DNA of 64,000 nucleotides from Hirudinaria manillensis. Its lineage: Eukaryota > Annelida > Clitellata > Hirudinida > Hirudinidae. Position 1 is the first letter of the stretch, and the number at the start of each line of letters is the position of its first letter. The translations under genes and the position numbers were made by a program. Shown piece after piece: positions 3,905 through 64,000 of this stretch. The stretch lies in NCBI GenBank assembly GCA_034509925.1, contig CM067529.1, positions 7,727,501 through 7,791,500 on the forward strand, written 5' to 3'. The notes beneath the pieces were generated by a model. That model had not been told where the DNA came from and ran no database searches. It worked only from the letters and a program-made list of their open reading frames with translations.

Positions 3905-4230
3905 TAATAACGTTACCTATCGATATTTTATTCTATAAACATGTTACTGACATCAAGTAATATATAAGGAGTCTTATTATGTTAATGAACTTTTATGAAA
4001 CCTGTAATAAAAATTTTTTTCCTCAACGGAAGAGACCCCACGCTCCATTGCGGAAACTCCGAGAAACAACATCAAAAGTGTTTCTTGGTGGATTCTCATC
4101 AATATTCAAATTTTAGTCTTAACTTTTATTGAATACTAATTAATTACTCTTTTGTGATCGCTAAAATCAGCATTTTGACCAAAGTTTACCGGTAATTTTA
4201 AAGATAGAGACAGAAAACTTGTGATTCTAG

Positions 4231-7770: not shown

Positions 7771-7899
7771 GTTATGTTATGTTATGTTATGTTATGTTAT
7801 GTTATGTTATGTTATGTTATGTTATGTTATGTTATGTTATGTTATGTTATGTTATGTTATGTTATGTTATGTTATGTTATGTTATGTTATGTTATGTTA
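7771..7899 (+). repeat. (GTTAT)25 microsatellite
   Basis: Twenty-five perfect GTTAT units run from 7771 to 7895, followed by GTTAC. The long open frame across it is a by-product of the 5-bp period lacking stops. Confidence 0.97.
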
Positions 7900-22940: not shown

Positions 22941-23053
22941 AAAGATCTAACCCAAGGAAGCCTAAATCGTTCGCATGTCTGATCCGCCTCCGACCTCAGA
23001 AAAGTCGCAAAACACGCCCTAGTGACTGCGCGTCGCTTTCAGACGTCTTCGGC

Positions 23054-23125
23054 AGGGGGCAGCCGGAGTTGAACCGGCGACCTCACGATCTGCAGTCGAA
23101 TGCTCTGCCACTGAGCTATACCCCC
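23054..23125 (-). tRNA. tRNA-Cys(GCA), copy 1, stem variant
   Basis: First tRNA of the array. It differs from the consensus at 23085, which puts U opposite U28 in the anticodon stem (position 42). It lies at the degenerate edge and may be less functional than the rest. Confidence 0.85.
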
Positions 23126-23303
23126 GACGATTCGCCACTTATTTTACACTTTCCATTTCCGTGCTTCAACGGCGGCAGTCGAGTTCGTCGATAGCACGCA
23201 TTCGAGGCCACTTTCGTCGTTTCACAGAGGTCTAACTCAAGGCAGCCTCATTCCGTTCTACTTCTTAACCAGATCGTTCCGCCTCCGACCTCAGAAAAGT
23301 CGC

Positions 23304-23307
23304 AAAA
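23304..23307 (-). terminator. First T4 after tRNA-Cys (copy 2; in every unit)
   Basis: Minus-strand TTTT in GTGTTTTGCG, 42-45 nt past the tRNA 3' end. A second TTTT follows at 23295-23298. No T run of four or more lies closer. T4 is a minimal Pol III stop in animals. Confidence 0.5.
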
Positions 23308-23348
23308 CACGCCCTAGTGACTGCGCGTCGCTTTCAGACGTCTTCGGC

Positions 23349-23420
23349 AGGGGGCAGCCGGAGTTGAACCGGCGACCTCTCGATCTGCAGTCGAATGCTC
23401 TGCCACTGAGCTATACCCCC
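23349..23420 (-). tRNA. tRNA-Cys-GCA: tRNA-Cys(GCA), copy 2, array consensus
   Basis: Delivers cysteine to UGC/UGU codons. The 72-nt cloverleaf is complete. Acceptor stem GGGGGTA/TGCCCCC has one U-G wobble. D stem is GCTC/GAGC with loop AGTGGCA. Anticodon stem TTCGA/TCGAG encloses loop CTGCAGA with anticodon GCA. The variable loop is AGGTC. T stem GCCGG/CCGGC encloses TTCAACT. Discriminator is U73, a cysteine identity base. There is no intron and no encoded CCA. The internal promoter is intact: A box TAGCTCAGTGG and B box GGTTCAACTCC. The body agrees closely with animal cytosolic tRNA-Cys as known to me. About 128 of the 139 copies look identical to this one by eye. Confidence 0.98.
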
Positions 23421-23433
23421 GACGATTCGCCAC

Positions 23434-23441
23434 TTATTTTA
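23434..23441 (-). promoter_or_regulatory. TATA-like element upstream of tRNA-Cys (copy 2; in every unit)
   Basis: TAAAATAA on the minus strand at -21 to -14 from the tRNA 5' end. AT-rich upstream boxes can assist TFIIIB placement. The context is otherwise G+C-rich and the box is conserved across the units, but this is a weak prediction. Confidence 0.4.
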
Positions 23442-24233
23442 CACTTTCCATTTCCGTGCTTCAACGGCGGCAGTCGAGTTCGTCGATAGCACGCATTCGA
23501 GGCCACTTTCGTCGTTTCACAGAGGTCTAACTCAAGGCAGCCTCATTCCGTTCTACTTCTTAACCAGATCGTTCCGCCTCCGACCTCAGAAAAGTCGCAA
23601 AACACGCCCTAGTGACTGCGCGTCGCTTTCAGACGTCTTCGGCAGGGGGCAGCCGGAGTTGAACCGGCGACCTCTCGATCTGCAGTCGAATGCTCTGCCA
23701 CTGAGCTATACCCCCGACGATTCGCCACTTATTTTACACTTTCCATTTCCGTGCTTCAACGGCGGCAGTCGAGTTCGTCGATAGCACGCATTCGAGGCCA
23801 CTTTCGTCGTTTCACAGAGGTCTAACTCAAGGCAGCCTCATTCCGTTCTACTTCTTAACCAGATCGTTCCGCCTCCGACCTCAGAAAAGTCGCAAAACAC
23901 GCCCTAGTGACTGCGCGTCGCTTTCAGACGTCTTCGGCAGGGGGCAGCCGGAGTTGAACCGGCGACCTCTCGATCTGCAGTCGAATGCTCTGCCACTGAG
24001 CTATACCCCCGACGATTCGCCACTTATTTTACACTTTCCATTTCCGTGCTTCAACGGCGGCAGTCGAGTTCGTCGATAGCACGCATTCGAGGCCACTTTC
24101 GTCGTTTCACAGAGGTCTAACTCAAGGCAGCCTCATTCCGTTCTACTTCTTAACCAGATCGTTACGCCTCCGACCTCAGAAAAGTCGCAAAACACGCCCT
24201 AGTGACTGCGCGTCGCTTTCAGACGTCTTCGGC

Positions 24234-24305
24234 AGGGGGAAGCCGGAGTTGAACCGGCGACCTCTCGATCTGCAGTCGAATGCTCTGCCACTGAGCTATA
24301 CCCCC
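24234..24305 (-). tRNA. tRNA-Cys(GCA), copy 5, G67U variant
   Basis: Base 24240 changes the U6-G67 wobble pair to U6-U67 in the acceptor stem. The rest matches the consensus. Confidence 0.88.
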
Positions 24306-27183
24306 GACGATTCGCCAGTTATTTTACACTTTCCATTTCCGTGCTTCAACGGCGGCAGTCGAGTTCGTCGATAGCACGCATTCGAGGCCACTTTCGTCGT
24401 TTCACAGAGGTCTAACTCAAGGCAGCCTCATTCCGTTCTACTTCTTAACCAGATCGTTCCGCCTCCGACCTCAGAAAAGTCGCAAAACACGCCCTAGTGA
24501 CTGCGCGTCGCTTTCAGACGTCTTCGGCAGGGGGCAGCCGGAGTTGAACCGGCGACCTCTCGATCTGCAGTCGAATGCTCTGCCACTGAGCTATACCCCC
24601 GACGATTCGCCACTTATTTTACACTTTCCATTTCCGTGCTTCAACGGCGGCAGTCGAGTTCGTCGATAGCACGCATTCGAGGCCACTTTCGTCGTTTCAC
24701 AGAGGTCTAACTCAAGGCAGCCTCATTCCGTTCTACTTCTTAACCAGATCGTTCCGCCTCCGACCTCAGAAAAGTCGCAAAACACGCCCTAGTGACTGCG
24801 CGTCGCTTTCAGACGTCTTCGGCAGGGGGCAGCCGGAGTTGAACCGGCGACCTCTCGATCTGCAGTCGAATGCTCTGCCACTGAGCTATACCCCCGACGA
24901 TTCGCCAGTTATTTTACACTTTCCATTTCCGTGCTTCAACGGCGGCAGTCGAGTTCGTCGATAGCACGCATTCGATGCCACTTTCGTCGTTTCACAGAGG
25001 TCTAACTCAAGGCAGCCTCATTCCGTTCTACTTCTTAACCAGATCGTTCCGCCTCCGACCTCAGAAAAGTCGCAAAACACGCCCTAGTGACTGCGCGTCG
25101 CTTTCAGACGTCTTCGGCAGGGGGCAGCCGGAGTTGAACCGGCGACCTCTCGATCTGCAGTCGAATGCTCTGCCACTGAGCTATACCCCCGACGATTCGC
25201 CACTTATTTTACACTTTCCATTTCCGTGCTTCAACGGCGGCAGTGGAGTTCGTCGATAGCACGCATTCGAGGCCACTTTCGTCGTTTCACAGAGGTCTAA
25301 CTCAAGGCAGCCTCATTCCGTTCTACTTCTTAACCAGATCGTTCCGCCTCCGACCTCAGAAAAGTCGCAAAACACGCCCTAGTGACTGCGCGTCGCTTTC
25401 AGACGTCTTCGGCAGGGGGCAGCCGGAGTTGAACCGGCGACCTCTCGATCTGCAGTCGAATGCTCTGCCACTGAGCTATACCCCCGACGATTCGCCACTT
25501 ATTTTACACTTTCCATTTCCGTGCTTCAACGGCGGCAGTCGAGTTCGTCGATAGCACGCATTCGAGGCCACTTTCGTCGTTTCACAGAGGTCTAACTCAA
25601 GGCAGCCTCATTCCGTTCTACTTCTTAACCAGATCGTTCCGCCTCCGACCTCAGAAAAGTCGCAAAACACGCCCTAGTGACTGCGCGTCGCTTTCAGACG
25701 TCTTCGGCAGGGGGCAGCCGGAGTTGAACCGGCGACCTCTCGATCTGCAGTCGAATGCTCTGCCACTGAGCTATACCCCCGACGATTCGCCAGTTATTTT
25801 ACACTTTCCATTTCCGTGCTTCAACGGCGGCAGTCGAGTTCGTCGATAGCACGCATTCGAGGCCACTTTCGTCGTTTCACAGAGGTCTAACTCAAGGCAG
25901 CCTCATTCCGTTCTACTTCTTAACCAGATCGTTACGCCTCCGACCTCAGAAAAGTCGCAAAACACGCCCTAGTGACTGCGCGTCGCTTTCAGACGTCTTC
26001 GGCAGGGGGCAGCCGGAGTTGAACCGGCGACCTCTCGATCTGCAGTCGAATGCTCTGCCACTGAGCTATACCCCCGACGATTCGCCACTTATTTTACACT
26101 TTCCATTTCCGTGCTTCAACGGCGGCAGTCGAGTTCGTCGATAGCACGCATTCGATGCCACTTTCGTCGTTTCACAGAGGTCTAACTCAAGGCAGCCTCA
26201 TTCCGTTCTACTTCTTAACCAGATCGTTCCGCCTCCGACCTCAGAAAAGTCGCAAAACACGCCCTAGTGACTGCGCGTCGCTTTCAGACGTCTTCGGCAG
26301 GGGGCAGCCGGAGTTGAACCGGCGACCTCTCGATCTGCAGTCGAATGCTCTGCCACTGAGCTATACCCCCGACGATTCGCCACTTATTTTACACTTTCCA
26401 TTTCCGTGCTTCAACGGCTGCAGTCTAGTTCGTCGATAGCACGCATTCGAGGCCACTTTCGTCGTTTCACAGAGGTCTAACTCAAGGCAGCCTCATTCCG
26501 TTCTACTTCTTAACCAGATCGTTCCGCCTCCGACCTCAGAAAAGTCGCAAAACACGCCCTAGTGACTGCGCGTCGCTTTCAGACGTCTTCGGCAGGGGGC
26601 AGCCGGAGTTGAACCGGCGACCTCTCGATCTGCAGTCGAATGCTCTGCCACTGAGCTATACCCCCGACGATTCGCCACTTATTTTACACTTTCCATTTCC
26701 GTGCTTCAACGGCGGCAGTCGAGTTCGTCGATAGCACGCATTCGAGGCCACTTTCGTCGTTTCACAGAGGTCTAACTCAAGGCAGCCTCATTCCGTTCTA
26801 CTTCTTAACCAGATCGTTCCGCCTCCGACCTCAGAAAAGTCGCAAAACACGCCCTAGTGACTGCGCGTCGCTTTCAGACGTCTTCGGCAGGGGGCAGCCG
26901 GAGTTGAACCGGCGACCTCTCGATCTGCAGTCGAATGCTCTGCCACTGAGCTATACCCCCGACGATTCGCCACTTATTTTACACTTTCCATTTCCGTGCT
27001 TCAACGGCTGCAGTCTAGTTCGTCGATAGCACGCATTCGAGGCCACTTTCGTCGTTTCACAGAGGTCTAACTCAAGGCAGCCTCATTCCGTTCTACTTCT
27101 TAACCAGATCGTTCCGCCTCCGACCTCAGAAAAGTCGCAAAACACGCCCTAGTGACTGCGCGTCGCTTTCAGACGTCTTCGGC

Positions 27184-27255
27184 AGGGGGCAGCCGGAGTT
27201 GAACCGGCGACCTCTCGATCTGCAGTCGAATGCTCTGCCACTGAGCTATAACCCC
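27184..27255 (-). tRNA. tRNA-Cys(GCA), copy 15, G5U variant
   Basis: Base 27251 changes G5 to U, so position 5 no longer pairs with C68. The rest matches the consensus. Confidence 0.88.
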
Positions 27256-30133
27256 GACGATTCGCCACTTATTTTACACTTTCCATTTCCGTGCTTCAAC
27301 GGCGGCAGTCGAGTTCGTCGATAGCACGCATTCGAGGCCACTTTCGTCGTTTCACAGAGGTCTAACTCAAGGCAGCCTCATTCCGTTCTACTTCTTAACC
27401 AGATCGTTCCGCCTCCGACCTCAGAAAAGTCGCAAAACACGCCCTAGTGACTGCGCGTCGCTTTCAGACGTCTTCGGCAGGGGGCAGCCGGAGTTGAACC
27501 GGCGACCTCTCGATCTGCAGTCGAATGCTCTGCCACTGAGCTATACCCCCGACGATTCGCCACTTATTTTACACTTTCCATTTCCGTGCTTCAACGGCTG
27601 CAGTCGAGTTCGTCGATAGCACGCATTCGAGGCCACTTTCGTCGTTTCACAGAGGTCTAACTCAAGGCAGCCTCATTCCGTTCTACTTCTTAACCAGATC
27701 GTTCCGCCTCCGACCTCAGAAAAGTCGCAAAACACGCCCTAGTGACTGCGCGTCGCTTTCAGACGTCTTCGGCAGGGGGCAGCCGGAGTTGAACCGGCGA
27801 CCTCTCGATCTGCAGTCGAATGCTCTGCCACTGAGCTATACCCCCGACGATTCGCCACTTATTTTACACTTTCCATTTCCGTGCTTCAACGGCGGCAGTC
27901 GAGTTCGTCGATAGCACGCATTCGATGCCACTTTCGTCGTTTCACAGAGGTCTAACTCAAGGCAGCCTCATTCCGTTCTACTTCTTAACCAGATCGTTCC
28001 GCCTCCGACCTCAGAAAAGTCGCAAAACACGCCCTAGTGACTGCGCGTCGCTTTCAGACGTCTTCGGCAGGGGGCAGCCGGAGTTGAACCGGCGACCTCT
28101 CGATCTGCAGTCGAATGCTCTGCCACTGAGCTATACCCCCGACGATTCGCCACTTATTTTACACTTTCCATTTCCGTGCTTCAACGGCGGCAGTCGAGTT
28201 CGTCGATAGCACGCATTCGAGGCCACTTTCGTCGTTTCACAGAGGTCTAACTCAAGGCAGCCTCATTCCGTTCTACTTCTTAACCAGATCGTTCCGCCTC
28301 CGACCTCAGAAAAGTCGCAAAACACGCCCTAGTGACTGCGCGTCGCTTTCAGACGTCTTCGGCAGGGGGCAGCCGGAGTTGAACCGGCGACCTCTCGATC
28401 TGCAGTCGAATGCTCTGCCACTGAGCTATACCCCCGACGATTCGCCACTTATTTTACACTTTCCATTTCCGTGCTTCAACGGCGGCAGTCGAGTTCGTCG
28501 ATAGCACGCATTCGAGGCCACTTTCGTCGTTTCACAGAGGTCTAACTCAAGGCAGCCTCATTCCGTTCTACTTCTTAACCAGATCGTTCCGCCTCCGACC
28601 TCAGAAAAGTCGCAAAACACGCCCTAGTGACTGCGCGTCGCTTTCAGACGTCTTCGGCAGGGGGCAGCCGGAGTTGAACCGGCGACCTCTCGATCTGCAG
28701 TCGAATGCTCTGCCACTGAGCTATACCCCCGACGATTCGCCACTTATTTTACACTTTCCATTTCCGTGCTTCAACGGCGGCAGTCGAGTTCGTCGATAGC
28801 ACGCATTCGATGCCACTTTCGTCGTTTCACAGAGGTCTAACTCAAGGCAGCCTCATTCCGTTCTACTTCTTAACCAGATCGTTCCGCCTCCGACCTCAGA
28901 AAAGTCGCAAAACACGCCCTAGTGACTGCGCGTCGCTTTCAGACGTCTTCGGCAGGGGGCAGCCGGAGTTGAACCGGCGACCTCTCGATCTGCAGTCGAA
29001 TGCTCTGCCACTGAGCTATACCCCCGACGATTCGCCACTTATTTTACACTTTCCATTTCCGTGCTTCAACGGCGGCAGTCGAGTTCGTCGATAGCACGCA
29101 TTCGAGGCCACTTTCGTCGTTTCACAGAGGTCTAACTCAAGGCAGCCTCATTCCGTTCTACTTCTTAACCAGATCGTTCCGCCTCCGACCTCAGAAAAGT
29201 CGCAAAACACGCCCTAGTGACTGCGCGTCGCTTTCAGACGTCTTCGGCAGGGGGCAGCCGGAGTTGAACCGGCGACCTCTCGATCTGCAGTCGAATGCTC
29301 TGCCACTGAGCTATACCCCCGACGATTCGCCACTTATTTTACACTTTCCATTTCCGTGCTTCAACGGCGGCAGTCGAGTTCGTCGATAGCACGCATTCGA
29401 TGCCACTTTCGTCGTTTCACAGAGGTCTAACTCAAGGCAGCCTCATTCCGTTCTACTTCTTAACCAGATCGTTCCGCCTCCGACCTCAGAAAAGTCGCAA
29501 AACACGCCCTAGTGACTGCGCGTCGCTTTCAGACGTCTTCGGCAGGGGGCAGCCGGAGTTGAACCGGCGACCTCTCGATCTGCAGTCGAATGCTCTGCCA
29601 CTGAGCTATACCCCCGACGATTCGCCACTTATTTTACACTTTCCATTTCCGTGCTTCAACGGCGGCAGTCGAGTTCGTCGATAGCACGCATTCGAGGCCA
29701 CTTTCGTCGTTTCACAGAGGTCTAACTCAAGGCAGCCTCATTCCGTTCTACTTCTTAACCAGATCGTTCCGCCTCCGACCTCAGAAAAGTCGCAAAACAC
29801 GCCCTAGTGACTGCGCGTCGCTTTCAGACGTCTTCGGCAGGGGGCAGCCGGAGTTGAACCGGCGACCTCTCGATCTGCAGTCGAATGCTCTGCCACTGAG
29901 CTATACCCCCGACGATTCGCCACTTATTTTACACTTTCCATTTCCGTGCTTCAACGGCGGCAGTCGAGTTCGTCGATAGCACGCATTCGAGGCCACTTTC
30001 GTCGTTTCACAGAGGTCTAACTCAAGGCAGCCTCATTCCGTTCTACTTCTTAACCAGATCGTTCCGCCTCCGACCTCAGAAAAGTCGCAAAACACGCCCT
30101 AGTGACTGCGCGTCGCTTTCAGACGTCTTCGGC

Positions 30134-30205
30134 AGGGGGCAGCCGGAGTTGAACCGGCGACCTCTCGATCTGCAGTCGAATGCTCTGCCACTGAGCTATA
30201 GCCCC
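30134..30205 (-). tRNA. tRNA-Cys(GCA), copy 25, G5C variant
   Basis: Base 30201 changes G5 to C, giving a C5-C68 mismatch. Confidence 0.88.
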
Positions 30206-31018
30206 GACGATTCGCCACTTATTTTACACTTTCCATTTCCGTGCTTCAACGGCGGCAGTCGAGTTCGTCGATAGCACGCATTCGAGGCCACTTTCGTCGT
30301 TTCACAGAGGTCTAACTCAAGGCAGCCTCATTCCGTTCTACTTCTTAACCAGATCGTTCCGCCTCCGACCTCAGAAAAGTCGCAAAACACGCCCTAGTGA
30401 CTGCGCGTCGCTTTCAGACGTCTTCGGCAGGGGGCAGCCGGAGTTGAACCGGCGACCTCTCGATCTGCAGTCGAATGCTCTGCCACTGAGCTATACCCCC
30501 GACGATTCGCCACTTATTTTACACTTTCCATTTCCGTGCTTCAACGGCTGCAGTCGAGTTCGTCGATAGCACGCATTCGAGGCCACTTTCGTCGTTTCAC
30601 AGAGGTCTAACTCAAGGCAGCCTCATTCCGTTCTACTTCTTAACCAGATCGTTACGCCTCCGACCTCAGAAAAGTCGCAAAACACGCCCTAGTGACTGCG
30701 CGTCGCTTTCAGACGTCTTCGGCAGGGGGCAGCCGGAGTTGAACCGGCGACCTCTCGATCTGCAGTCGAATGCTCTGCCACTGAGCTATACCCCCGACGA
30801 TTCGCCACTTATTTTACACTTTCCATTTCCGTGCTTCAACGGCTGCAGTCGAGTTCGTCGATAGCACGCATTCGAGGCCACTTTCGTCGTTTCACAGAGG
30901 TCTAACTCAAGGCAGCCTCATTCCGTTCTACTTCTTAACCAGATCGTTCCGCCTCCGACCTCAGAAAAGTCGCAAAACACGCCCTAGTGACTGCGCGTCG
31001 CTTTCAGACGTCTTCGGC

Positions 31019-31090
31019 AGGGGGAAGCCGGAGTTGAACCGGCGACCTCTCGATCTGCAGTCGAATGCTCTGCCACTGAGCTATACCCCC
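31019..31090 (-). tRNA. tRNA-Cys(GCA), copy 28, G67U variant
   Basis: Base 31025 carries the same G67U change as copies 5 and 29. Confidence 0.88.
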
Positions 31091-31313
31091 GACGATTCGC
31101 CACTTATTTTACACTTTCCATTTCCGTGCTTCAACGGCTGCAGTCGAGTTCGTCGATAGCACGCATTCGAGGCCACTTTCGTCGTTTCACAGAGGTCTAA
31201 CTCAAGGCAGCCTCATTCCGTTCTACTTCTTAACCAGATCGTTCCGCCTCCGACCTCAGAAAAGTCGCAAAACACGCCCTAGTGACTGCGCGTCGCTTTC
31301 AGACGTCTTCGGC

Positions 31314-31385
31314 AGGGGGAAGCCGGAGTTGAACCGGCGACCTCTCGATCTGCAGTCGAATGCTCTGCCACTGAGCTATAGCCCC
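31314..31385 (-). tRNA. tRNA-Cys(GCA), copy 29, double variant
   Basis: It carries both G67U (31320) and G5C (31381), which leaves two acceptor-stem mismatches. It is the most altered copy and may be a pseudogene. It combines changes seen singly in neighbours 25 and 28. Confidence 0.8.
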
Positions 31386-31903
31386 GACGATTCGCCAGTT
31401 ATTTTACACTTTCCATTTCCGTGCTTCAACGGCGGCAGTCGAGTTCGTCGATAGCACGCATTCGAGGCCACTTTCGTCGTTTCACAGAGGTCTAACTCAA
31501 GGCAGCCTCATTCCGTTCTACTTCTTAACCAGATCGTTCCGCCTCCGACCTCAGAAAAGTCGCAAAACACGCCCTAGTGACTGCGCGTCGCTTTCAGACG
31601 TCTTCGGCAGGGGGCAGCCGGAGTTGAACCGGCGACCTCTCGATCTGCAGTCGAATGCTCTGCCACTGAGCTATACCCCCGACGATTCGCCACTTATTTT
31701 ACACTTTCCATTTCCGTGCTTCAACGGCGGCAGTCGAGTTCGTCGATAGCACGCATTCGAGGCCACTTTCGTCGTTTCACAGAGGTCTAACTCAAGGCAG
31801 CCTCATTCCGTTCTACTTCTTAACCAGATCGTTCCGCCTCCGACCTCAGAAAAGTCGCAAAACACGCCCTAGTGACTGCGCGTCGCTTTCAGACGTCTTC
31901 GGC

Positions 31904-31975
31904 AGGGGGCAGCCGGAGTTGAACCGGCGACCTCTCGATCTGCAGTCGAATGCTCTGCCACTGAGCTATACCACC
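31904..31975 (-). tRNA. tRNA-Cys(GCA), copy 31, G3U variant
   Basis: Base 31973 changes G3 to U opposite C70, a mismatch. Confidence 0.88.
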
Positions 31976-32198
31976 GACGATTCGCCACTTATTTTACACT
32001 TTCCATTTCCGTGCTTCAACGGCGGTAGTCGAGTTCGTCGATAGCACGCATTCGAGGCCACTTTCGTCGTTTCACAGAGGTCTAACTCAAGGCAGCCTCA
32101 TTCCGTTCTACTTCTTAACCAGATCGTTCCGCCTCCGACCTCAGAAAAGTCGCAAAACACGCCCTAGTGACTGCGCGTCGCTTTCAGACGTCTTCGGC

Positions 32199-32270
32199 AG
32201 GGGGCAGCCGGAGTTGAACCGGCGACCTCTCGATCTGCAGTCGAATGCTCTGCCACTGAGCTATAACCCC
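32199..32270 (-). tRNA. tRNA-Cys(GCA), copy 32, G5U variant
   Basis: Base 32266 carries the same G5U change as copy 15. Confidence 0.88.
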
Positions 32271-32788
32271 GACGATTCGCCACTTATTTTACACTTTCCA
32301 TTTCCGTGCTTCAACGGCGGCAGTCGAGTTCGTCGATAGCACGCATTCGAGGCCACTTTCGTCGTTTCACAGAGGTCTAACTCAAGGCAGCCTCATTCCG
32401 TTCTACTTCTTAACCAGATCGTTCCGCCTCCGACCTCAGAAAAGTCGCAAAACACGCCCTAGTGACTGCGCGTCGCTTTCAGACGTCTTCGGCAGGGGGC
32501 AGCCGGAGTTGAACCGGCGACCTCTCGATCTGCAGTCGAATGCTCTGCCACTGAGCTATACCCCCGACGATTCGCCACTTATTTTACACTTTCCATTTCC
32601 GTGCTTCAACGGCGGCAGTCGAGTTCGTCGATAGCACGCATTCGAGGCCACTTTCGTCGTTTCACAGAGGTCTAACTCAAGGCAGCCTCATTCCGTTCTA
32701 CTTCTTAACCAGATCGTTCCGCCTCCGACCTCAGAAAAGTCGCAAAACACGCCCTAGTGACTGCGCGTCGATTTCAGACGTCTTCGGC

Positions 32789-32860
32789 AGGGGGCAGCCG
32801 GAGTTGAACCGGCGACCTCTCGATCTGCAGTCGAATGCTCTGCCACTGAGCTATACCACC
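32789..32860 (-). tRNA. tRNA-Cys(GCA), copy 34, G3U variant
   Basis: Base 32858 carries the same G3U change as copy 31. This is the last base-substituted tRNA that I see; from here rightwards only two one-base deletions occur. Confidence 0.88.
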
Positions 32861-35800
32861 GACGATTCGCCACTTATTTTACACTTTCCATTTCCGTGCT
32901 TCAACGGCGGCAGTCGAGTTCGTCGATAGCACGCATTCGAGGCCACTTTCGTCGTTTCACAGAGGTCTAACTCAAGGCAGCCTCATTCCGTTCTACTTCT
33001 TAACCAGATCGTTCCGCCTCCGACCTCAGAAAAGTCGCAAAACACGCCCTAGTGACTGCGCGTCGCTTTCAGACGTCTTCGGCAGGGGGCAGCCGGAGTT
33101 GAACCGGCGACCTCTCGATCTGCAGTCGAATGCTCTGCCACTGAGCTATACCCCCGACGATTCGCCACTTATTTTACACTTTCCATTTCCGTGCTTCAAC
33201 GGCGGCAGTCGAGTTCGTCGATAGCACGCATTCGAGGCCACTTTCGTCGTTTCACAGAGGTCTAACTCAAGGCAGCCTCATTCCGTTCTACTTCTTAACC
33301 AGATCGTTCCGCCTCCGACCTCAGAAAAGTCGCAAAACACGCCCTAGTGACTGCGCGTCGCTTTCAGACGTCTTCGGCAGGGGGCAGCCGGAGTTGAACC
33401 GGCGACCTCTCGATCTGCAGTCGAATGCTCTGCCACTGAGCTATACCCCCGACGATTCGCCAGTTATTTTACACTTTCCATTTCCGTGCTTCAACGGCGG
33501 CAGTCGAGTTCGTCGATAGCACGCATTCGAGGCCACTTTCGTCGTTTCACAGAGGTCTAACTCAAGGCAGCCTCATTCCGTTCTACTTCTTAACCAGATC
33601 GTTCCGCCTCCGACCTCAGAAAAGTCGCAAAACACGCCCTAGTGACTGCGCGTCGCTTTCAGACGTCTTCGGCAGGGGGCAGCCGGAGTTGAACCGGCGA
33701 CCTCTCGATCTGCAGTCGAATGCTCTGCCACTGAGCTATACCCCCGACGATTCGCCACTTATTTTACACTTTCCATTTCCGTGCTTCAACGGCTGCAGTC
33801 GAGTTCGTCGATAGCACGCATTCGAGGCCACTTTCGTCGTTTCACAGAGGTCTAACTCAAGGCAGCCTCATTCCGTTCTACTTCTTAACCAGATCGTTCC
33901 GCCTCCGACCTCAGAAAAGTCGCAAAACACGCCCTAGTGACTGCGCGTCGCTTTCAGACGTCTTCGGCAGGGGGCAGCCGGAGTTGAACCGGCGACCTCT
34001 CGATCTGCAGTCGAATGCTCTGCCACTGAGCTATACCCCCGACGATTCGCCACTTATTTTACACTTTCCATTTCCGTGCTTCAACGGCTGCAGTCTAGTT
34101 CGTCGATAGCACGCATTCGAGGCCACTTTCGTCGTTTCACAGAGGTCTAACTCAAGGCAGCCTCATTCCGTTCTACTTCTTAACCAGATCGTTCCGCCTC
34201 CGACCTCAGAAAAGTCGCAAAACACGCCCTAGTGACTGCGCGTCGCTTTCAGACGTCTTCGGCAGGGGGCAGCCGGAGTTGAACCGGCGACCTCTCGATC
34301 TGCAGTCGAATGCTCTGCCACTGAGCTATACCCCCGACGATTCGCCACTTATTTTACACTTTCCATTTCCGTGCTTCAACGGCGGCAGTCGAGTTCGTCG
34401 ATAGCACGCATTCGAGGCCACTTTCGTCGTTTCACAGAGGTCTAACTCAAGGCAGCCTCATTCCGTTCTACTTCTTAACCAGATCGTTCCGCCTCCGACC
34501 TCAGAAAAGTCGCAAAACACGCCCTAGTGACTGCGCGTCGCTTTCAGACGTCTTCGGCAGGGGGCAGCCGGAGTTGAACCGGCGACCTCTCGATCTGCAG
34601 TCGAATGCTCTGCCACTGAGCTATACCCCCGACGATTCGCCACTTATTTTACACTTTCCATTTCCGTGCTTCAACGGCGGCAGTCGAGTTCGTCGATAGC
34701 ACGCATTCGAGGCCACTTTCGTCGTTTCACAGAGGTCTAACTCAAGGCAGCCTCATTCCGTTCTACTTCTTAACCAGATCGTTCCGCCTCCGACCTCAGA
34801 AAAGTCGCAAAACACGCCCTAGTGACTGCGCGTCGCTTTCAGACGTCTTCGGCAGGGGGCAGCCGGAGTTGAACCGGCGACCTCTCGATCTGCAGTCGAA
34901 TGCTCTGCCACTGAGCTATACCCCCGACGATTCGCCACTTATTTTACACTTTCCATTTCCGTGCTTCAACGGCTGCAGTCGAGTTCGTCGATAGCACGCA
35001 TTCGAGGCCACTTTCGTCGTTTCACAGAGGTCTAACTCAAGGCAGCCTCATTCCGTTCTACTTCTTAACCAGATCGTTCCGCCTCCGACCTCAGAAAAGT
35101 CGCAAAACACGCCCTAGTGACTGCGCGTCGCTTTCAGACGTCTTCGGCAGGGGGCAGCCGGAGTTGAACCGGCGACCTCTCGATCTGCAGTCGAATGCTC
35201 TGCCACTGAGCTATACCCCCGACGATTCGCCACTTATTTTACACTTTCCATTTCCGTGCTTCAACGGCGGCAGTCGAGTTCGTCGATAGCACGCATTCGA
35301 GGCCACTTTCGTCGTTTCACAGAGGTCTAACTCAAGGCAGCCTCATTCCGTTCTACTTCTTAACCAGATCGTTCCGCCTCCGACCTCAGAAAAGTCGCAA
35401 AACACGCCCTAGTGACTGCGCGTCGCTTTCAGACGTCTTCGGCAGGGGGCAGCCGGAGTTGAACCGGCGACCTCTCGATCTGCAGTCGAATGCTCTGCCA
35501 CTGAGCTATACCCCCGACGATTCGCCACTTATTTTACACTTTCCATTTCCGTGCTTCAACGGCGGCAGTCGAGTTCGTCGATAGCACGCATTCGAGGCCA
35601 CTTTCGTCGTTTCACAGAGGTCTAACTCAAGGCAGCCTCATTCCGTTCTACTTCTTAACCAGATCGTTCCGCCTCCGACCTCAGAAAAGTCGCAAAACAC
35701 GCCCTAGTGACTGCGCGTCGCTTTCAGACGTCTTCGGCAGGGGGCAGCCGGAGTTGAACCGGCGACCTCTCGATCTGCAGTCGAATGCTCTGCCACTGAG

Positions 35801-47538: not shown

Positions 47539-47609
47539 AGGGGGCAGCCGGAGTTGAACCGGCGACCTCTCGATCTGCAGTCGAATGCTCTGCCACTGAG
47601 CTATACCCC
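47539..47609 (-). tRNA. tRNA-Cys(GCA), copy 84, one G deleted
   Basis: 71 nt. The 5' G run has four instead of five, which shortens the 5' side of the acceptor stem. The same change is present in copy 127. Confidence 0.85.
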
Positions 47610-53600: not shown

Positions 53601-56600
53601 TCGTTTCACAGAGGTCTAACTCAAGGCAGCCTCATTCCGTTCTACTTCTTAACCAGATCGTTCCGCCTCCGACCTCAGAAAAGTCGCAAAACACGCCCTA
53701 GTGACTGCGCGTCGCTTTCAGACGTCTTCGGCAGGGGGCAGCCGGAGTTGAACCGGCGACCTCTCGATCTGCAGTCGAATGCTCTGCCACTGAGCTATAC
53801 CCCCGACGATTCGCCACTTATTTTACACTTTCCATTTCCGTGCTTCAACGGCGGCAGTCGAGTTCGTCGATAGCACGCATTCGAGGCCACTTTCGTCGTT
53901 TCACAGAGGTCTAACTCAAGGCAGCCTCATTCCGTTCTACTTCTTAACCAGATCGTTCCGCCTCCGACCTCAGAAAAGTCGCAAAACACGCCCTAGTGAC
54001 TGCGCGTCGCTTTCAGACGTCTTCGGCAGGGGGCAGCCGGAGTTGAACCGGCGACCTCTCGATCTGCAGTCGAATGCTCTGCCACTGAGCTATACCCCCG
54101 ACGATTCGCCACTTATTTTACACTTTCCATTTCCGTGCTTCAACGGCGGCAGTCGAGTTCGTCGATAGCACGCATTCGAGGCCACTTTCGTCGTTTCACA
54201 GAGGTCTAACTCAAGGCAGCCTCATTCCGTTCTACTTCTTAACCAGATCGTTCCGCCTCCGACCTCAGAAAAGTCGCAAAACACGCCCTAGTGACTGCGC
54301 GTCGCTTTCAGACGTCTTCGGCAGGGGGCAGCCGGAGTTGAACCGGCGACCTCTCGATCTGCAGTCGAATGCTCTGCCACTGAGCTATACCCCCGACGAT
54401 TCGCCACTTATTTTACACTTTCCATTTCCGTGCTTCAACGGCGGCAGTCGAGTTCGTCGATAGCACGCATTCGAGGCCACTTTCGTCGTTTCACAGAGGT
54501 CTAACTCAAGGCAGCCTCATTCCGTTCTACTTCTTAACCAGATCGTTCCGCCTCCGACCTCAGAAAAGTCGCAAAACACGCCCTAGTGACTGCGCGTCGC
54601 TTTCAGACGTCTTCGGCAGGGGGCAGCCGGAGTTGAACCGGCGACCTCTCGATCTGCAGTCGAATGCTCTGCCACTGAGCTATACCCCCGACGATTCGCC
54701 ACTTATTTTACACTTTCCATTTCCGTGCTTCAACGGCGGCAGTCGAGTTCGTCGATAGCACGCATTCGAGGCCACTTTCGTCGTTTCACAGAGGTCTAAC
54801 TCAAGGCAGCCTCATTCCGTTCTACTTCTTAACCAGATCGTTCCGCCTCCGACCTCAGAAAAGTCGCAAAACACGCCCTAGTGACTGCGCGTCGCTTTCA
54901 GACGTCTTCGGCAGGGGGCAGCCGGAGTTGAACCGGCGACCTCTCGATCTGCAGTCGAATGCTCTGCCACTGAGCTATACCCCCGACGATTCGCCACTTA
55001 TTTTACACTTTCCATTTCCGTGCTTCAACGGCGGCAGTCGAGTTCGTCGATAGCACGCATTCGAGGCCACTTTCGTCGTTTCACAGAGGTCTAACTCAAG
55101 GCAGCCTCATTCCGTTCTACTTCTTAACCAGATCGTTCCGCCTCCGACCTCAGAAAAGTCGCAAAACACGCCCTAGTGACTGCGCGTCGCTTTCAGACGT
55201 CTTCGGCAGGGGGCAGCCGGAGTTGAACCGGCGACCTCTCGATCTGCAGTCGAATGCTCTGCCACTGAGCTATACCCCCGACGATTCGCCACTTATTTTA
55301 CACTTTCCATTTCCGTGCTTCAACGGCGGCAGTCGAGTTCGTCGATAGCACGCATTCGAGGCCACTTTCGTCGTTTCACAGAGGTCTAACTCAAGGCAGC
55401 CTCATTCCGTTCTACTTCTTAACCAGATCGTTCCGCCTCCGACCTCAGAAAAGTCGCAAAACACGCCCTAGTGACTGCGCGTCGCTTTCAGACGTCTTCG
55501 GCAGGGGGCAGCCGGAGTTGAACCGGCGACCTCTCGATCTGCAGTCGAATGCTCTGCCACTGAGCTATACCCCCGACGATTCGCCACTTATTTTACACTT
55601 TCCATTTCCGTGCTTCAACGGCGGCAGTCGAGTTCGTCGATAGCACGCATTCGAGGCCACTTTCGTCGTTTCACAGAGGTCTAACTCAAGGCAGCCTCAT
55701 TCCGTTCTACTTCTTAACCAGATCGTTCCGCCTCCGACCTCAGAAAAGTCGCAAAACACGCCCTAGTGACTGCGCGTCGCTTTCAGACGTCTTCGGCAGG
55801 GGGCAGCCGGAGTTGAACCGGCGACCTCTCGATCTGCAGTCGAATGCTCTGCCACTGAGCTATACCCCCGACGATTCGCCACTTATTTTACACTTTCCAT
55901 TTCCGTGCTTCAACGGCGGCAGTCGAGTTCGTCGATAGCACGCATTCGAGGCCACTTTCGTCGTTTCACAGAGGTCTAACTCAAGGCAGCCTCATTCCGT
56001 TCTACTTCTTAACCAGATCGTTCCGCCTCCGACCTCAGAAAAGTCGCAAAACACGCCCTAGTGACTGCGCGTCGCTTTCAGACGTCTTCGGCAGGGGGCA
56101 GCCGGAGTTGAACCGGCGACCTCTCGATCTGCAGTCGAATGCTCTGCCACTGAGCTATACCCCCGACGATTCGCCACTTATTTTACACTTTCCATTTCCG
56201 TGCTTCAACGGCGGCAGTCGAGTTCGTCGATAGCACGCATTCGAGGCCACTTTCGTCGTTTCACAGAGGTCTAACTCAAGGCAGCCTCATTCCGTTCTAC
56301 TTCTTAACCAGATCGTTCCGCCTCCGACCTCAGAAAAGTCGCAAAACACGCCCTAGTGACTGCGCGTCGCTTTCAGACGTCTTCGGCAGGGGGCAGCCGG
56401 AGTTGAACCGGCGACCTCTCGATCTGCAGTCGAATGCTCTGCCACTGAGCTATACCCCCGACGATTCGCCACTTATTTTACACTTTCCATTTCCGTGCTT
56501 CAACGGCGGCAGTCGAGTTCGTCGATAGCACGCATTCGAGGCCACTTTCGTCGTTTCACAGAGGTCTAACTCAAGGCAGCCTCATTCCGTTCTACTTCTT

Positions 56601-59600
56601 AACCAGATCGTTCCGCCTCCGACCTCAGAAAAGTCGCAAAACACGCCCTAGTGACTGCGCGTCGCTTTCAGACGTCTTCGGCAGGGGGCAGCCGGAGTTG
56701 AACCGGCGACCTCTCGATCTGCAGTCGAATGCTCTGCCACTGAGCTATACCCCCGACGATTCGCCACTTATTTTACACTTTCCATTTCCGTGCTTCAACG
56801 GCGGCAGTCGAGTTCGTCGATAGCACGCATTCGAGGCCACTTTCGTCGTTTCACAGAGGTCTAACTCAAGGCAGCCTCATTCCGTTCTACTTCTTAACCA
56901 GATCGTTCCGCCTCCGACCTCAGAAAAGTCGCAAAACACGCCCTAGTGACTGCGCGTCGCTTTCAGACGTCTTCGGCAGGGGGCAGCCGGAGTTGAACCG
57001 GCGACCTCTCGATCTGCAGTCGAATGCTCTGCCACTGAGCTATACCCCCGACGATTCGCCACTTATTTTACACTTTCCATTTCCGTGCTTCAACGGCGGC
57101 AGTCGAGTTCGTCGATAGCACGCATTCGAGGCCACTTTCGTCGTTTCACAGAGGTCTAACTCAAGGCAGCCTCATTCCGTTCTACTTCTTAACCAGATCG
57201 TTCCGCCTCCGACCTCAGAAAAGTCGCAAAACACGCCCTAGTGACTGCGCGTCGCTTTCAGACGTCTTCGGCAGGGGGCAGCCGGAGTTGAACCGGCGAC
57301 CTCTCGATCTGCAGTCGAATGCTCTGCCACTGAGCTATACCCCCGACGATTCGCCACTTATTTTACACTTTCCATTTCCGTGCTTCAACGGCGGCAGTCG
57401 AGTTCGTCGATAGCACGCATTCGAGGCCACTTTCGTCGTTTCACAGAGGTCTAACTCAAGGCAGCCTCATTCCGTTCTACTTCTTAACCAGATCGTTCCG
57501 CCTCCGACCTCAGAAAAGTCGCAAAACACGCCCTAGTGACTGCGCGTCGCTTTCAGACGTCTTCGGCAGGGGGCAGCCGGAGTTGAACCGGCGACCTCTC
57601 GATCTGCAGTCGAATGCTCTGCCACTGAGCTATACCCCCGACGATTCGCCACTTATTTTACACTTTCCATTTCCGTGCTTCAACGGCGGCAGTCGAGTTC
57701 GTCGATAGCACGCATTCGAGGCCACTTTCGTCGTTTCACAGAGGTCTAACTCAAGGCAGCCTCATTCCGTTCTACTTCTTAACCAGATCGTTCCGCCTCC
57801 GACCTCAGAAAAGTCGCAAAACACGCCCTAGTGACTGCGCGTCGCTTTCAGACGTCTTCGGCAGGGGGCAGCCGGAGTTGAACCGGCGACCTCTCGATCT
57901 GCAGTCGAATGCTCTGCCACTGAGCTATACCCCCGACGATTCGCCACTTATTTTACACTTTCCATTTCCGTGCTTCAACGGCGGCAGTCGAGTTCGTCGA
58001 TAGCACGCATTCGAGGCCACTTTCGTCGTTTCACAGAGGTCTAACTCAAGGCAGCCTCATTCCGTTCTACTTCTTAACCAGATCGTTCCGCCTCCGACCT
58101 CAGAAAAGTCGCAAAACACGCCCTAGTGACTGCGCGTCGCTTTCAGACGTCTTCGGCAGGGGGCAGCCGGAGTTGAACCGGCGACCTCTCGATCTGCAGT
58201 CGAATGCTCTGCCACTGAGCTATACCCCCGACGATTCGCCACTTATTTTACACTTTCCATTTCCGTGCTTCAACGGCGGCAGTCGAGTTCGTCGATAGCA
58301 CGCATTCGAGGCCACTTTCGTCGTTTCACAGAGGTCTAACTCAAGGCAGCCTCATTCCGTTCTACTTCTTAACCAGATCGTTCCGCCTCCGACCTCAGAA
58401 AAGTCGCAAAACACGCCCTAGTGACTGCGCGTCGCTTTCAGACGTCTTCGGCAGGGGGCAGCCGGAGTTGAACCGGCGACCTCTCGATCTGCAGTCGAAT
58501 GCTCTGCCACTGAGCTATACCCCCGACGATTCGCCACTTATTTTACACTTTCCATTTCCGTGCTTCAACGGCGGCAGTCGAGTTCGTCGATAGCACGCAT
58601 TCGAGGCCACTTTCGTCGTTTCACAGAGGTCTAACTCAAGGCAGCCTCATTCCGTTCTACTTCTTAACCAGATCGTTCCGCCTCCGACCTCAGAAAAGTC
58701 GCAAAACACGCCCTAGTGACTGCGCGTCGCTTTCAGACGTCTTCGGCAGGGGGCAGCCGGAGTTGAACCGGCGACCTCTCGATCTGCAGTCGAATGCTCT
58801 GCCACTGAGCTATACCCCCGACGATTCGCCACTTATTTTACACTTTCCATTTCCGTGCTTCAACGGCGGCAGTCGAGTTCGTCGATAGCACGCATTCGAG
58901 GCCACTTTCGTCGTTTCACAGAGGTCTAACTCAAGGCAGCCTCATTCCGTTCTACTTCTTAACCAGATCGTTCCGCCTCCGACCTCAGAAAAGTCGCAAA
59001 ACACGCCCTAGTGACTGCGCGTCGCTTTCAGACGTCTTCGGCAGGGGGCAGCCGGAGTTGAACCGGCGACCTCTCGATCTGCAGTCGAATGCTCTGCCAC
59101 TGAGCTATACCCCCGACGATTCGCCACTTATTTTACACTTTCCATTTCCGTGCTTCAACGGCGGCAGTCGAGTTCGTCGATAGCACGCATTCGAGGCCAC
59201 TTTCGTCGTTTCACAGAGGTCTAACTCAAGGCAGCCTCATTCCGTTCTACTTCTTAACCAGATCGTTCCGCCTCCGACCTCAGAAAAGTCGCAAAACACG
59301 CCCTAGTGACTGCGCGTCGCTTTCAGACGTCTTCGGCAGGGGGCAGCCGGAGTTGAACCGGCGACCTCTCGATCTGCAGTCGAATGCTCTGCCACTGAGC
59401 TATACCCCCGACGATTCGCCACTTATTTTACACTTTCCATTTCCGTGCTTCAACGGCGGCAGTCGAGTTCGTCGATAGCACGCATTCGAGGCCACTTTCG
59501 TCGTTTCACAGAGGTCTAACTCAAGGCAGCCTCATTCCGTTCTACTTCTTAACCAGATCGTTCCGCCTCCGACCTCAGAAAAGTCGCAAAACACGCCCTA

Positions 59601-60222
59601 GTGACTGCGCGTCGCTTTCAGACGTCTTCGGCAGGGGGCAGCCGGAGTTGAACCGGCGACCTCTCGATCTGCAGTCGAATGCTCTGCCACTGAGCTATAC
59701 CCCCGACGATTCGCCACTTATTTTACACTTTCCATTTCCGTGCTTCAACGGCGGCAGTCGAGTTCGTCGATAGCACGCATTCGAGGCCACTTTCGTCGTT
59801 TCACAGAGGTCTAACTCAAGGCAGCCTCATTCCGTTCTACTTCTTAACCAGATCGTTCCGCCTCCGACCTCAGAAAAGTCGCAAAACACGCCCTAGTGAC
59901 TGCGCGTCGCTTTCAGACGTCTTCGGCAGGGGGCAGCCGGAGTTGAACCGGCGACCTCTCGATCTGCAGTCGAATGCTCTGCCACTGAGCTATACCCCCG
60001 ACGATTCGCCACTTATTTTACACTTTCCATTTCCGTGCTTCAACGGCGGCAGTCGAGTTCGTCGATAGCACGCATTCGAGGCCACTTTCGTCGTTTCACA
60101 GAGGTCTAACTCAAGGCAGCCTCATTCCGTTCTACTTCTTAACCAGATCGTTCCGCCTCCGACCTCAGAAAAGTCGCAAAACACGCCCTAGTGACTGCGC
60201 GTCGCTTTCAGACGTCTTCGGC

Positions 60223-60293
60223 AGGGGGCAGCCGGAGTTGAACCGGCGACCTCTCGATCTGCAGTCGAATGCTCTGCCACTGAGCTATACCCC
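60223..60293 (-). tRNA. tRNA-Cys(GCA), copy 127, one G deleted
   Basis: 71 nt with the same loss of one 5' G as copy 84, exactly 43 units away. The unit and its next two neighbours also carry the same spacer types as those after copy 84. Confidence 0.85.
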
Positions 60294-63200
60294 GACGATT
60301 CGCCACTTATTTTACACTTTCCATTTCCGTGCTTCAACGGCGGCAGTCGAGTTCGTCGATAGCACGCATTCGAGGCCACTTTCGTCGTTTCACAGAGGTC
60401 TAACTCAAGGCAGCCTCATTCCGTTCTACTTCTTAACCAGATCGTTCCGCCTCCGACCTCAGAAAAGTCGCAAAACACGCCCTAGTGACTGCGCGTCGCT
60501 TTCAGACGTCTTCGGCAGGGGGCAGCCGGAGTTGAACCGGCGACCTCTCGATCTGCAGTCGAATGCTCTGCCACTGAGCTATACCCCCGACGATTCGCCA
60601 CTTATTTTACACTTTCCATTTCCGTGCTTCAACGGCGGCAGTCGAGTTCGTCGATAGCACGCATTCGAGGCCACTTTCGTCGTTTCACAGAGGTCTAACT
60701 CAAGGCAGCCTCATTCCGTTCTACTTCTTAACCAGATCGTTCCGCCTCCGACCTCAGAAAAGTCGCAAAACACGCCCTAGTGACTGCGCGTCGCTTTCAG
60801 ACGTCTTCGGCAGGGGGCAGCCGGAGTTGAACCGGCGACCTCTCGATCTGCAGTCGAATGCTCTGCCACTGAGCTATACCCCCGACGATTCGCCACTTAT
60901 TTTACACTTTCCATTTCCGTGCTTCAACGGCTGCAGTCGAGTTCGTCGATAGCACGCATTCGAGGCCACTTTCGTCGTTTCACAGAGGTCTAACTCAAGG
61001 CAGCCTCATTCCGTTCTACTTCTTAACCAGATCGTTCCGCCTCCGACCTCAGAAAAGTCGCAAAACACGCCCTAGTGACTGCGCGTCGCTTTCAGACGTC
61101 TTCGGCAGGGGGCAGCCGGAGTTGAACCGGCGACCTCTCGATCTGCAGTCGAATGCTCTGCCACTGAGCTATACCCCCGACGATTCGCCACTTATTTTAC
61201 ACTTTCCATTTCCGTGCTTCAACGGCTGCAGTCGAGTTCGTCGATAGCACGCATTCGAGGCCACTTTCGTCGTTTCACAGAGGTCTAACTCAAGGCAGCC
61301 TCATTCCGTTCTACTTCTTAACCAGATCGTTCCGCCTCCGACCTCAGAAAAGTCGCAAAACACGCCCTAGTGACTGCGCGTCGCTTTCAGACGTCTTCGG
61401 CAGGGGGCAGCCGGAGTTGAACCGGCGACCTCTCGATCTGCAGTCGAATGCTCTGCCACTGAGCTATACCCCCGACGATTCGCCACTTATTTTACACTTT
61501 CCATTTCCGTGCTTCAACGGCGGCAGTCGAGTTCGTCGATAGCACGCATTCGAGGCCACTTTCGTCGTTTCACAGAGGTCTAACTCAAGGCAGCCTCATT
61601 CCGTTCTACTTCTTAACCAGATCGTTCCGCCTCCGACCTCAGAAAAGTCGCAAAACACGCCCTAGTGACTGCGCGTCGCTTTCAGACGTCTTCGGCAGGG
61701 GGCAGCCGGAGTTGAACCGGCGACCTCTCGATCTGCAGTCGAATGCTCTGCCACTGAGCTATACCCCCGACGATTCGCCACTTATTTTACACTTTCCATT
61801 TCCGTGCTTCAACGGCTGCAGTCGAGTTCGTCGATAGCACGCATTCGAGGCCACTTTCGTCGTTTCACAGAGGTCTAACTCAAGGCAGCCTCATTCCGTT
61901 CTACTTCTTAACCAGATCGTTCCGCCTCCGACCTCAGAAAAGTCGCAAAACACGCCCTAGTGACTGCGCGTCGCTTTCAGACGTCTTCGGCAGGGGGCAG
62001 CCGGAGTTGAACCGGCGACCTCTCGATCTGCAGTCGAATGCTCTGCCACTGAGCTATACCCCCGACGATTCGCCACTTATTTTACACTTTCCATTTCCGT
62101 GCTTCAACGGCGGCAGTCGAGTTCGTCGATAGCACGCATTCGAGGCCACTTTCGTCGTTTCACAGAGGTCTAACTCAAGGCAGCCTCATTCCGTTCTACT
62201 TCTTAACCAGATCGTTCCGCCTCCGACCTCAGAAAAGTCGCAAAACACGCCCTAGTGACTGCGCGTCGCTTTCAGACGTCTTCGGCAGGGGGCAGCCGGA
62301 GTTGAACCGGCGACCTCTCGATCTGCAGTCGAATGCTCTGCCACTGAGCTATACCCCCGACGATTCGCCACTTATTTTACACTTTCCATTTCCGTGCTTC
62401 AACGGCGGCAGTCGAGTTCGTCGATAGCACGCATTCGAGGCCACTTTCGTCGTTTCACAGAGGTCTAACTCAAGGCAGCCTCATTCCGTTCTACTTCTTA
62501 ACCAGATCGTTCCGCCTCCGACCTCAGAAAAGTCGCAAAACACGCCCTAGTGACTGCGCGTCGCTTTCAGACGTCTTCGGCAGGGGGCAGCCGGAGTTGA
62601 ACCGGCGACCTCTCGATCTGCAGTCGAATGCTCTGCCACTGAGCTATACCCCCGACGATTCGCCACTTATTTTACACTTTCCATTTCCGTGCTTCAACGG
62701 CGGCAGTCGAGTTCGTCGATAGCACGCATTCGAGGCCACTTTCGTCGTTTCACAGAGGTCTAACTCAAGGCAGCCTCATTCCGTTCTACTTCTTAACCAG
62801 ATCGTTCCGCCTCCGACCTCAGAAAAGTCGCAAAACACGCCCTAGTGACTGCGCGTCGCTTTCAGACGTCTTCGGCAGGGGGCAGCCGGAGTTGAACCGG
62901 CGACCTCTCGATCTGCAGTCGAATGCTCTGCCACTGAGCTATACCCCCGACGATTCGCCACTTATTTTACACTTTCCATTTCCGTGCTTCAACGGCTGCA
63001 GTCGAGTTCGTCGATAGCACGCATTCGAGGCCACTTTCGTCGTTTCACAGAGGTCTAACTCAAGGCAGCCTCATTCCGTTCTACTTCTTAACCAGATCGT
63101 TCCGCCTCCGACCTCAGAAAAGTCGCAAAACACGCCCTAGTGACTGCGCGTCGCTTTCAGACGTCTTCGGCAGGGGGCAGCCGGAGTTGAACCGGCGACC

Positions 63201-63761
63201 TCTCGATCTGCAGTCGAATGCTCTGCCACTGAGCTATACCCCCGACGATTCGCCACTTATTTTACACTTTCCATTTCCGTGCTTCAACGGCGGCAGTCGA
63301 GTTCGTCGATAGCACGCATTCGAGGCCACTTTCGTCGTTTCACAGAGGTCTAACTCAAGGCAGCCTCATTCCGTTCTACTTCTTAACCAGATCGTTCCGC
63401 CTCCGACCTCAGAAAAGTCGCAAAACACGCCCTAGTGACTGCGCGTCGCTTTCAGACGTCTTCGGCAGGGGGCAGCCGGAGTTGAACCGGCGACCTCTCG
63501 ATCTGCAGTCGAATGCTCTGCCACTGAGCTATACCCCCGACGATTCGCCACTTATTTTACACTTTCCATTTCCGTGCTTCAACGGCGGCAGTCGAGTTCG
63601 TCGATAGCACGCATTCGAGGCCACTTTCGTCGTTTCACAGAGGTCTAACTCAAGGCAGCCTCATTCCGTTCTACTTCTTAACCAGATCGTTCCGCCTCCG
63701 ACCTCAGAAAAGTCGCAAAACACGCCCTAGTGACTGCGCGTCGCTTTCAGACGTCTTCGGC

Positions 63762-63833
63762 AGGGGGCAGCCGGAGTTGAACCGGCGACCTCTCGATCTG
63801 CAGTCGAATGCTCTGCCACTGAGCTATACCCCC
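63762..63833 (-). tRNA. tRNA-Cys-GCA: tRNA-Cys(GCA), copy 139, last complete copy in view
   Basis: Consensus sequence. The array continues: 63834-64000 is the spacer of the next unit. Confidence 0.98.
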
Positions 63834-64000
63834 GACGATTCGCCACTTATTTTACACTTTCCATTTCCGTGCTTCAACGGCTGCAGTCGAGTTCGTCGAT
63901 AGCACGCATTCGAGGCCACTTTCGTCGTTTCACAGAGGTCTAACTCAAGGCAGCCTCATTCCGTTCTACTTCTTAACCAGATCGTTCCGCCTCCGACCTC

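Follow-up and report, generated by a model that had tools for sequence, protein, structure and literature searches.

A 64,000-nucleotide stretch of the genome of the leech Hirudinaria manillensis (GenBank assembly GCA_034509925.1, contig CM067529.1, positions 7,727,501 to 7,791,500 of the forward strand), referred to below as the window, carries most of a tandem array of tRNA-Cys(GCA) genes. Contig 23 of this 23-contig genome carries COX1, for which the top protein matches are Poecilobdella javanica (97%) and H. manillensis (96%); the slightly higher value for P. javanica is the single point that does not favour taking the genome to be the H. manillensis assembly of PMC10671345. Seven other tandem tRNA arrays were found, with repeat units of 246–683 bp and one to three tRNA genes in each unit, bringing the number in this genome to at least eight. 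These are likely to be arrays of ordinary nuclear tRNA genes, each with a unit of its own, which would be transcribed by RNA polymerase III (Pol III) and homogenised, with copy numbers that follow array length. Such an organisation is best known from Entamoeba and is unusual for an animal, since the tRNA genes of animals mostly lie dispersed or in mixed clusters.

The tRNA-Cys array

ARAGORN called 139 tRNA-Cys(GCA) genes in the window, all 139 on the minus strand, the first at 23054–23125 and the last at 63762–63833, and Tandem Repeats Finder (TRF) resolved a single array at 22983–64000 with a period of 295 bp, 139.1 copies and 99% matches. A further 18 genes lie beyond the window edge, so that the complete array comprises 157 genes in about 46.3 kb, each with a complete tRNA fold and a GCA anticodon according to ARAGORN, and ends on the right near position 7796740 of the sequence that carries it (C4), from where AT-rich unique sequence continues. 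Measured from anchor to anchor, 153 of 156 units are 295 bp long and the remaining three 294 bp, and each 295-bp unit bears one tRNA-Cys gene. A first-pass annotation of the window had proposed at least 139 head-to-tail genes, as a minimum, with one tRNA-Cys(GCA) per 295-bp unit, and both statements are borne out by the ARAGORN calls (139/139) and the TRF period. The start that it gave, 22941, also agrees with the sequence, read by eye, since a degraded remnant of the unit on the minus strand occupies 22941–22982, immediately before the TRF array.

The unit at 23340–23634 (minus strand, unit 1) shows zero differences from the consensus, and its gene, called by ARAGORN at 23349–23420 on the same strand, has the consensus sequence. 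Consensus copies of the gene score 69 bits against the Rfam tRNA family RF00005, and all ten Rfam matches within positions 1–26000 of the window are tRNAs. Candidate Pol III terminators of this gene lie at 23295–23307 (minus strand), where a run of four T residues at 23304–23307, starting 42 nt past the gene, is followed by a second at 23295–23298. An AT-rich stretch, TAAAATAAG, was read from the sequence 13–21 nt upstream of the gene (23433–23441, minus strand); inspection by eye revealed no recurrence of a similar stretch upstream of the genes of the other arrays.

The 72-nt gene, searched genome-wide with up to three mismatches, gave 157 minus-strand matches and a single plus-strand match, with zero and zero for the control; 157 of these 158 lie in the C4 array, and the other is a solo gene on the plus strand of C5 with unrelated, AT-rich flanks. 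When the whole unit was used as query, the sole match outside the array, with the best two of three candidates scored, was one of 73 bp at the tRNA gene on C5. The first-pass annotation had also offered satellite DNA as an option, but the only other gene within three mismatches is this solo copy, and a dispersed satellite was rejected as the main account because the unit was found at one locus only, although the gene search would miss a unit lacking the gene.

Seven further arrays and their spacers

The first of the other arrays came up on C1 through an Rfam tRNA search, and the rest were found by following such leads. That search scored the best 63 of 10475 candidates, all of which fell in one C1 array, and a joined human-type tRNA query scored the best six of 57, such that neither constitutes a census; a human-type tRNA-Thr pattern searched against the genome gave zero matches.

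On C1, positions 5585951–5629335 carry a 585-bp unit with Thr(AGT) and Leu(CAG) genes on opposite strands, with 74 Thr matches within three mismatches and one more diverged copy that supplies a 75th T arm. A second array on C1, which starts at 4489.2 kb and ends between 4550.4 and 4553 kb, has a 246-bp unit with a 112-nt match which we read as an intron-bearing Leu(CAA) gene, its anticodon having been assigned by eye with no ARAGORN call; 249–259 copies are estimated over 61–64 kb. A partly masked Lys(CTT) array with a 331-bp unit, in which ARAGORN called four unmasked genes, starts on C4 at about 6835.5 kb and extends past 6862 kb, and Phe(GAA) and Glu(TTC) genes share a 400-bp unit on C2, where the array starts at 14065.9 kb and continues past 14122.5 kb (over 56 kb). 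The Ala(TGC), Gly(GCC) and Ala(AGC) array on C5, with a 553-bp unit, starts at 8149.6 kb and ends between 8202.6 and 8206 kb; the Asp(GTC) and Asn(GTT) genes lie together in a 499-bp unit on C8 at 2930.3–2969.3 kb, with at least 78 Asp T arms; and a 683-bp unit with Val(AAC), Glu(CTC) and Val(CAC) genes is repeated on C11, starting at 4070.6 kb and ending between 4120.2 and 4121.5 kb. The extents of the Leu(CAA), Ala/Gly/Ala, Val/Glu/Val, Phe/Glu and Lys arrays are sampled positions, with the right ends of the last two beyond the samples.

Lower bounds summed over the arrays amount to an estimated 1,580 or so tRNA genes in about 375–376 kb, assuming continuity between sampled points and identical gene content in every unit, and this corresponds to about 0.25% of the genome (about 375 kb of 148.4 Mb). 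The genes of the seven non-Cys arrays are full tRNA matches in Rfam, with structure intact beyond the A and B boxes. Only RF00005 reached the gathering score in the seven array loci scanned and thus no 5S RNA was found in the units, nor was it found at the Lys locus scanned at E values up to 1.

Solo copies were also found for Thr (C10) and Asp, and an Arg(ACG) gene on C13 is single within the 3.5 kb examined. Three T-arm patterns gave 741, 575 and 181 matches in the genome (controls 2, 5 and 4), counts which overlap and are not additive, and their locations are those among the matches listed, with exact T arms also on C2 beyond 14107.3 kb. The Gly/Glu-type T arm gave 467 forward matches, for about 100 of which the located arrays account (Ala/Gly/Ala array). 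More arrays probably remain to be found, because the located ones leave most of these matches unassigned. An Ala/Ile-type pattern yielded 20 matches (control 3) and no array, the arrayed Ala genes having another T arm, and an initiator-Met-type pattern yielded 31 (control 7) and no array for this T arm.

When one unit per array was compared by BLAST, similarity was essentially confined to the tRNA genes. The spacers being unrelated, the arrays were not copied from one another. All eight nevertheless converge in composition, with a spacer GC content of 0.50–0.57 against 0.28–0.37 in 14 stretches of flanking and solo-gene sequence, and such agreement among eight spacers of unrelated sequence suggests that a common process is at work. 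The best candidate is GC-biased gene conversion, which is to be expected when copies are continually correcting each other; no case of such conversion of tRNA genes was present among the literature matches listed. Observed/expected ratios for CpG in the array spacers are 1.1–1.7.

Homogeneity, copy number and alternative explanations

The 156 complete Cys units fall into 22 distinct sequences, the commonest of which occurs 100 times, and 145 of the 157 tRNA genes are identical. Variation is concentrated at the left edge (23045–35434, minus strand), where 42 units show a pairwise difference of 0.56% and 19 forms, compared with 0.08% and three forms for the next 96 units and 0.21% and five forms for the last 18. 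Nine of the 12 variant genes fall within these left 42 units and carry ten substitutions in all, nine of them in the acceptor stem. Unequal exchange predicts such a pattern, uniform inside the array and more varied at its edge. The base changes segregating among Cys units, counted by hand over window positions 23045–64000 and the 5,240 bp beyond, include 12 transversions out of 13, for the most part C>A and G>T; in a similar hand count for the Thr/Leu array, seven of 21 changes were transversions (p 0.001 for the comparison).

For the six arrays with known or bracketed ends, longer units go with fewer copies (Spearman −0.94), and array length, at 39–63 kb whatever the unit length, varies much less than copy number (coefficients of variation 0.17 and 0.58), three of the six lengths being midpoints of bracketed ends. 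The high Cys copy number would thus be due, in part, to the shortness of the unit.

On the reading that we favour, the genes would be transcribed singly by Pol III from internal promoters, and unequal exchange together with gene conversion, the latter probably GC-biased, would maintain the similarity of the units and may also clear damaged copies from the array interior. Copy number would be set mainly by a tolerated array length of about 40–60 kb and not by demand for each amino acid. With respect to termination, a run of four or more T residues begins no more than 42 nt past the 3' end in all 19 genes examined, and the 41-nt trailer predicted for the Cys-array genes is consistent with transcription by Pol III and would serve to recognise precursors derived from the array. 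The first T-run continues into GC (TTTTGC) in eight of the 19, as seen by eye. A bolder extension, which we put forward tentatively as quite possible, is that most nuclear tRNA genes of this leech lie in isoacceptor-specific, length-limited arrays, an Entamoeba-like convergence in a bilaterian, and that strong biased conversion made the unrelated spacers GC-rich.

Several observations weigh against the favoured reading. The terminator of the Cys-array genes, at +42, is unusually distant, as compared with +9 in the solo Cys gene. The other three variant Cys genes (units 83, 126 and 143) are interior or right-hand ones and have one G fewer in the 5' run, which could be a consensus error in a homopolymer. 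The Cys-array polymorphism alone provides no direct sign of selection on the gene, because within the array the gene is no less variable than the spacer (4/72 against 8/223 sites, p 0.50). Nor are the genes significantly less variable in the Thr/Leu array, where hand counts gave 3/160 variable sites in genes and 17/425 in spacers (p 0.31) once a misaligned unit had been dropped; an apparently strong constraint there (p 6e-6, from the 37 of 44 units that are 585 bp long) was an artefact of that one unit, whose alignment was shifted. Finally, the regularity of array lengths may be biological or may reflect the reach of the sequencing reads, and hence assembly limits.

This last point leads to a somewhat unlikely, but not negligible, alternative in which the arrays exist and their assembled lengths are artefacts, collapsed to what reads could reach from both sides, with higher true copy numbers and a meaningless length regularity. 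The H. manillensis assembly to which this genome is taken to correspond was built from PacBio HiFi reads with a mean length of 18.73 kb (PMC10671345), and the six arrays measure 39–63 kb regardless of unit, or about two to three times that mean. HiFi reads of such length should, however, order most of the Cys units, because the longest exact repeat in the array is 6.4 kb and scattered variants mark positions along it; moreover, the Phe/Glu array exceeds 56 kb and the Leu(CAA) array reaches 61–64 kb. Selection for tRNA-Cys supply to Cys-rich salivary or other secreted proteins is a less probable cause of the Cys expansion; the first-pass annotation had suggested a supply for a Cys-rich product. 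Cys usually makes up a low share of protein residues, against which 157 genes and one solo copy stand out, and a link with Cys-rich secretions is therefore possible. In its favour, many Cys-rich antithrombotic proteins are described for H. manillensis, in which these families are prominent (PMC10671345). Yet Cys is not special in being arrayed, since the seven other arrays serve common amino acids, with Leu(CAA) at an estimated 249–259 copies, and the drop in copy number with lengthening unit means that a short unit can explain the count, such that no special Cys supply is needed to account for the array.

Two further alternatives place selection elsewhere or dispense with it. If the array were a TFIIIC-bound boundary or structural locus, with binding rather than tRNA output under selection, its composition, sharply unlike that of the flanks, would be accommodated, and tRNA gene clusters act as boundaries in other organisms; a human tRNA tandem repeat has been proposed as one (PMC4041453). 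We consider this decidedly improbable, given the variety of isoacceptors and unit types and the retention of full tRNA structure beyond the A and B boxes. Least credible is a satellite that carries a tRNA gene by chance, the gene being silent or irrelevant. Although high homogeneity is in keeping with it, as is the failure to detect any additional constraint on the gene inside the Cys array, the Cys unit is confined to one locus, where 145 of 157 genes are identical, and eight unrelated units all carry intact canonical tRNA genes.

Relation to known tRNA gene clusters

The analogy with Entamoeba drawn in the first-pass annotation is strengthened by the finding that other isoacceptors have arrays of their own in the leech genome. 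Entamoeba carries 25 types of tDNA array that include almost all its tRNA genes and make up over 10% of the genome (PMC2652664). The leech resembles it in having a number of different arrays, with one to a few tRNA genes in a short unit peculiar to each and with concerted evolution homogenising the copies. Some Entamoeba units contain 5S RNA, and those of E. histolytica and E. dispar have microsatellite-like repeats between genes (PMC2652664), whereas in the leech, an animal, the eight arrays found amount to about 0.25% of the genome and showed no 5S match and no microsatellite-like repeats.

A second statement of that annotation, that known animal arrays mix isoacceptors, was too broad. In drosophilids adjacent tRNA genes mostly belong to the same kind, but not in arrays of leech length (PMC2888827). 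The clusters of Nematostella and teleosts resemble those of the leech in having fifty or more tRNA genes close together, but in Nematostella and zebrafish the pairs are mostly mixed (PMC2888827), whereas the leech repeats one to three fixed genes per unit about 70–250 times. In Arabidopsis, tRNA-Cys(GCA) genes form a tandem cluster on chromosome 5 whose units are likewise short (0.4 kb) and variable in number, although it has four copies compared with 157 (PMC10701932). The human 1q23.3 locus is likewise a tandem repeat with tRNA genes, but it has a 7.3-kb unit in 9–43 copies and binds CTCF (PMC4041453).

No description of comparable arrays in a leech or other annelid was present among the literature matches listed; 'trna' does not occur in the main text of PMC10671345, nor 'arrays' in that of PMC10087013. 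For other leeches, 1308 tRNAs have been reported for Dinobdella ferox (PMC10494388) and 429 tRNA genes for Hirudo medicinalis (PMC7303139), and counts from fragmented leech assemblies, such as the latter, may be too low. A compact animal genome with many long, pure and near-identical tRNA arrays would make it possible to test how tandem Pol III genes stay alike, whether demand or the mechanics of the array determines copy number, and whether gene conversion alone can raise the GC content of spacers.

The remainder of the window contains a Tc1/mariner-type transposase reading frame with DDE_3 and Tc3 HTH domains (2933–3916, minus strand), a (TTATG) pentanucleotide repeat of 27.6 copies detected by TRF (7762–7899) and a Ty3/gypsy-like retroelement with gag-like (SAP domain) and pol reading frames (12950–17957, minus strand). 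A Thr/Ser-rich, mucin-like reading frame with no Pfam domain (18635–19363, plus strand) overlaps a 27-bp tandem repeat.

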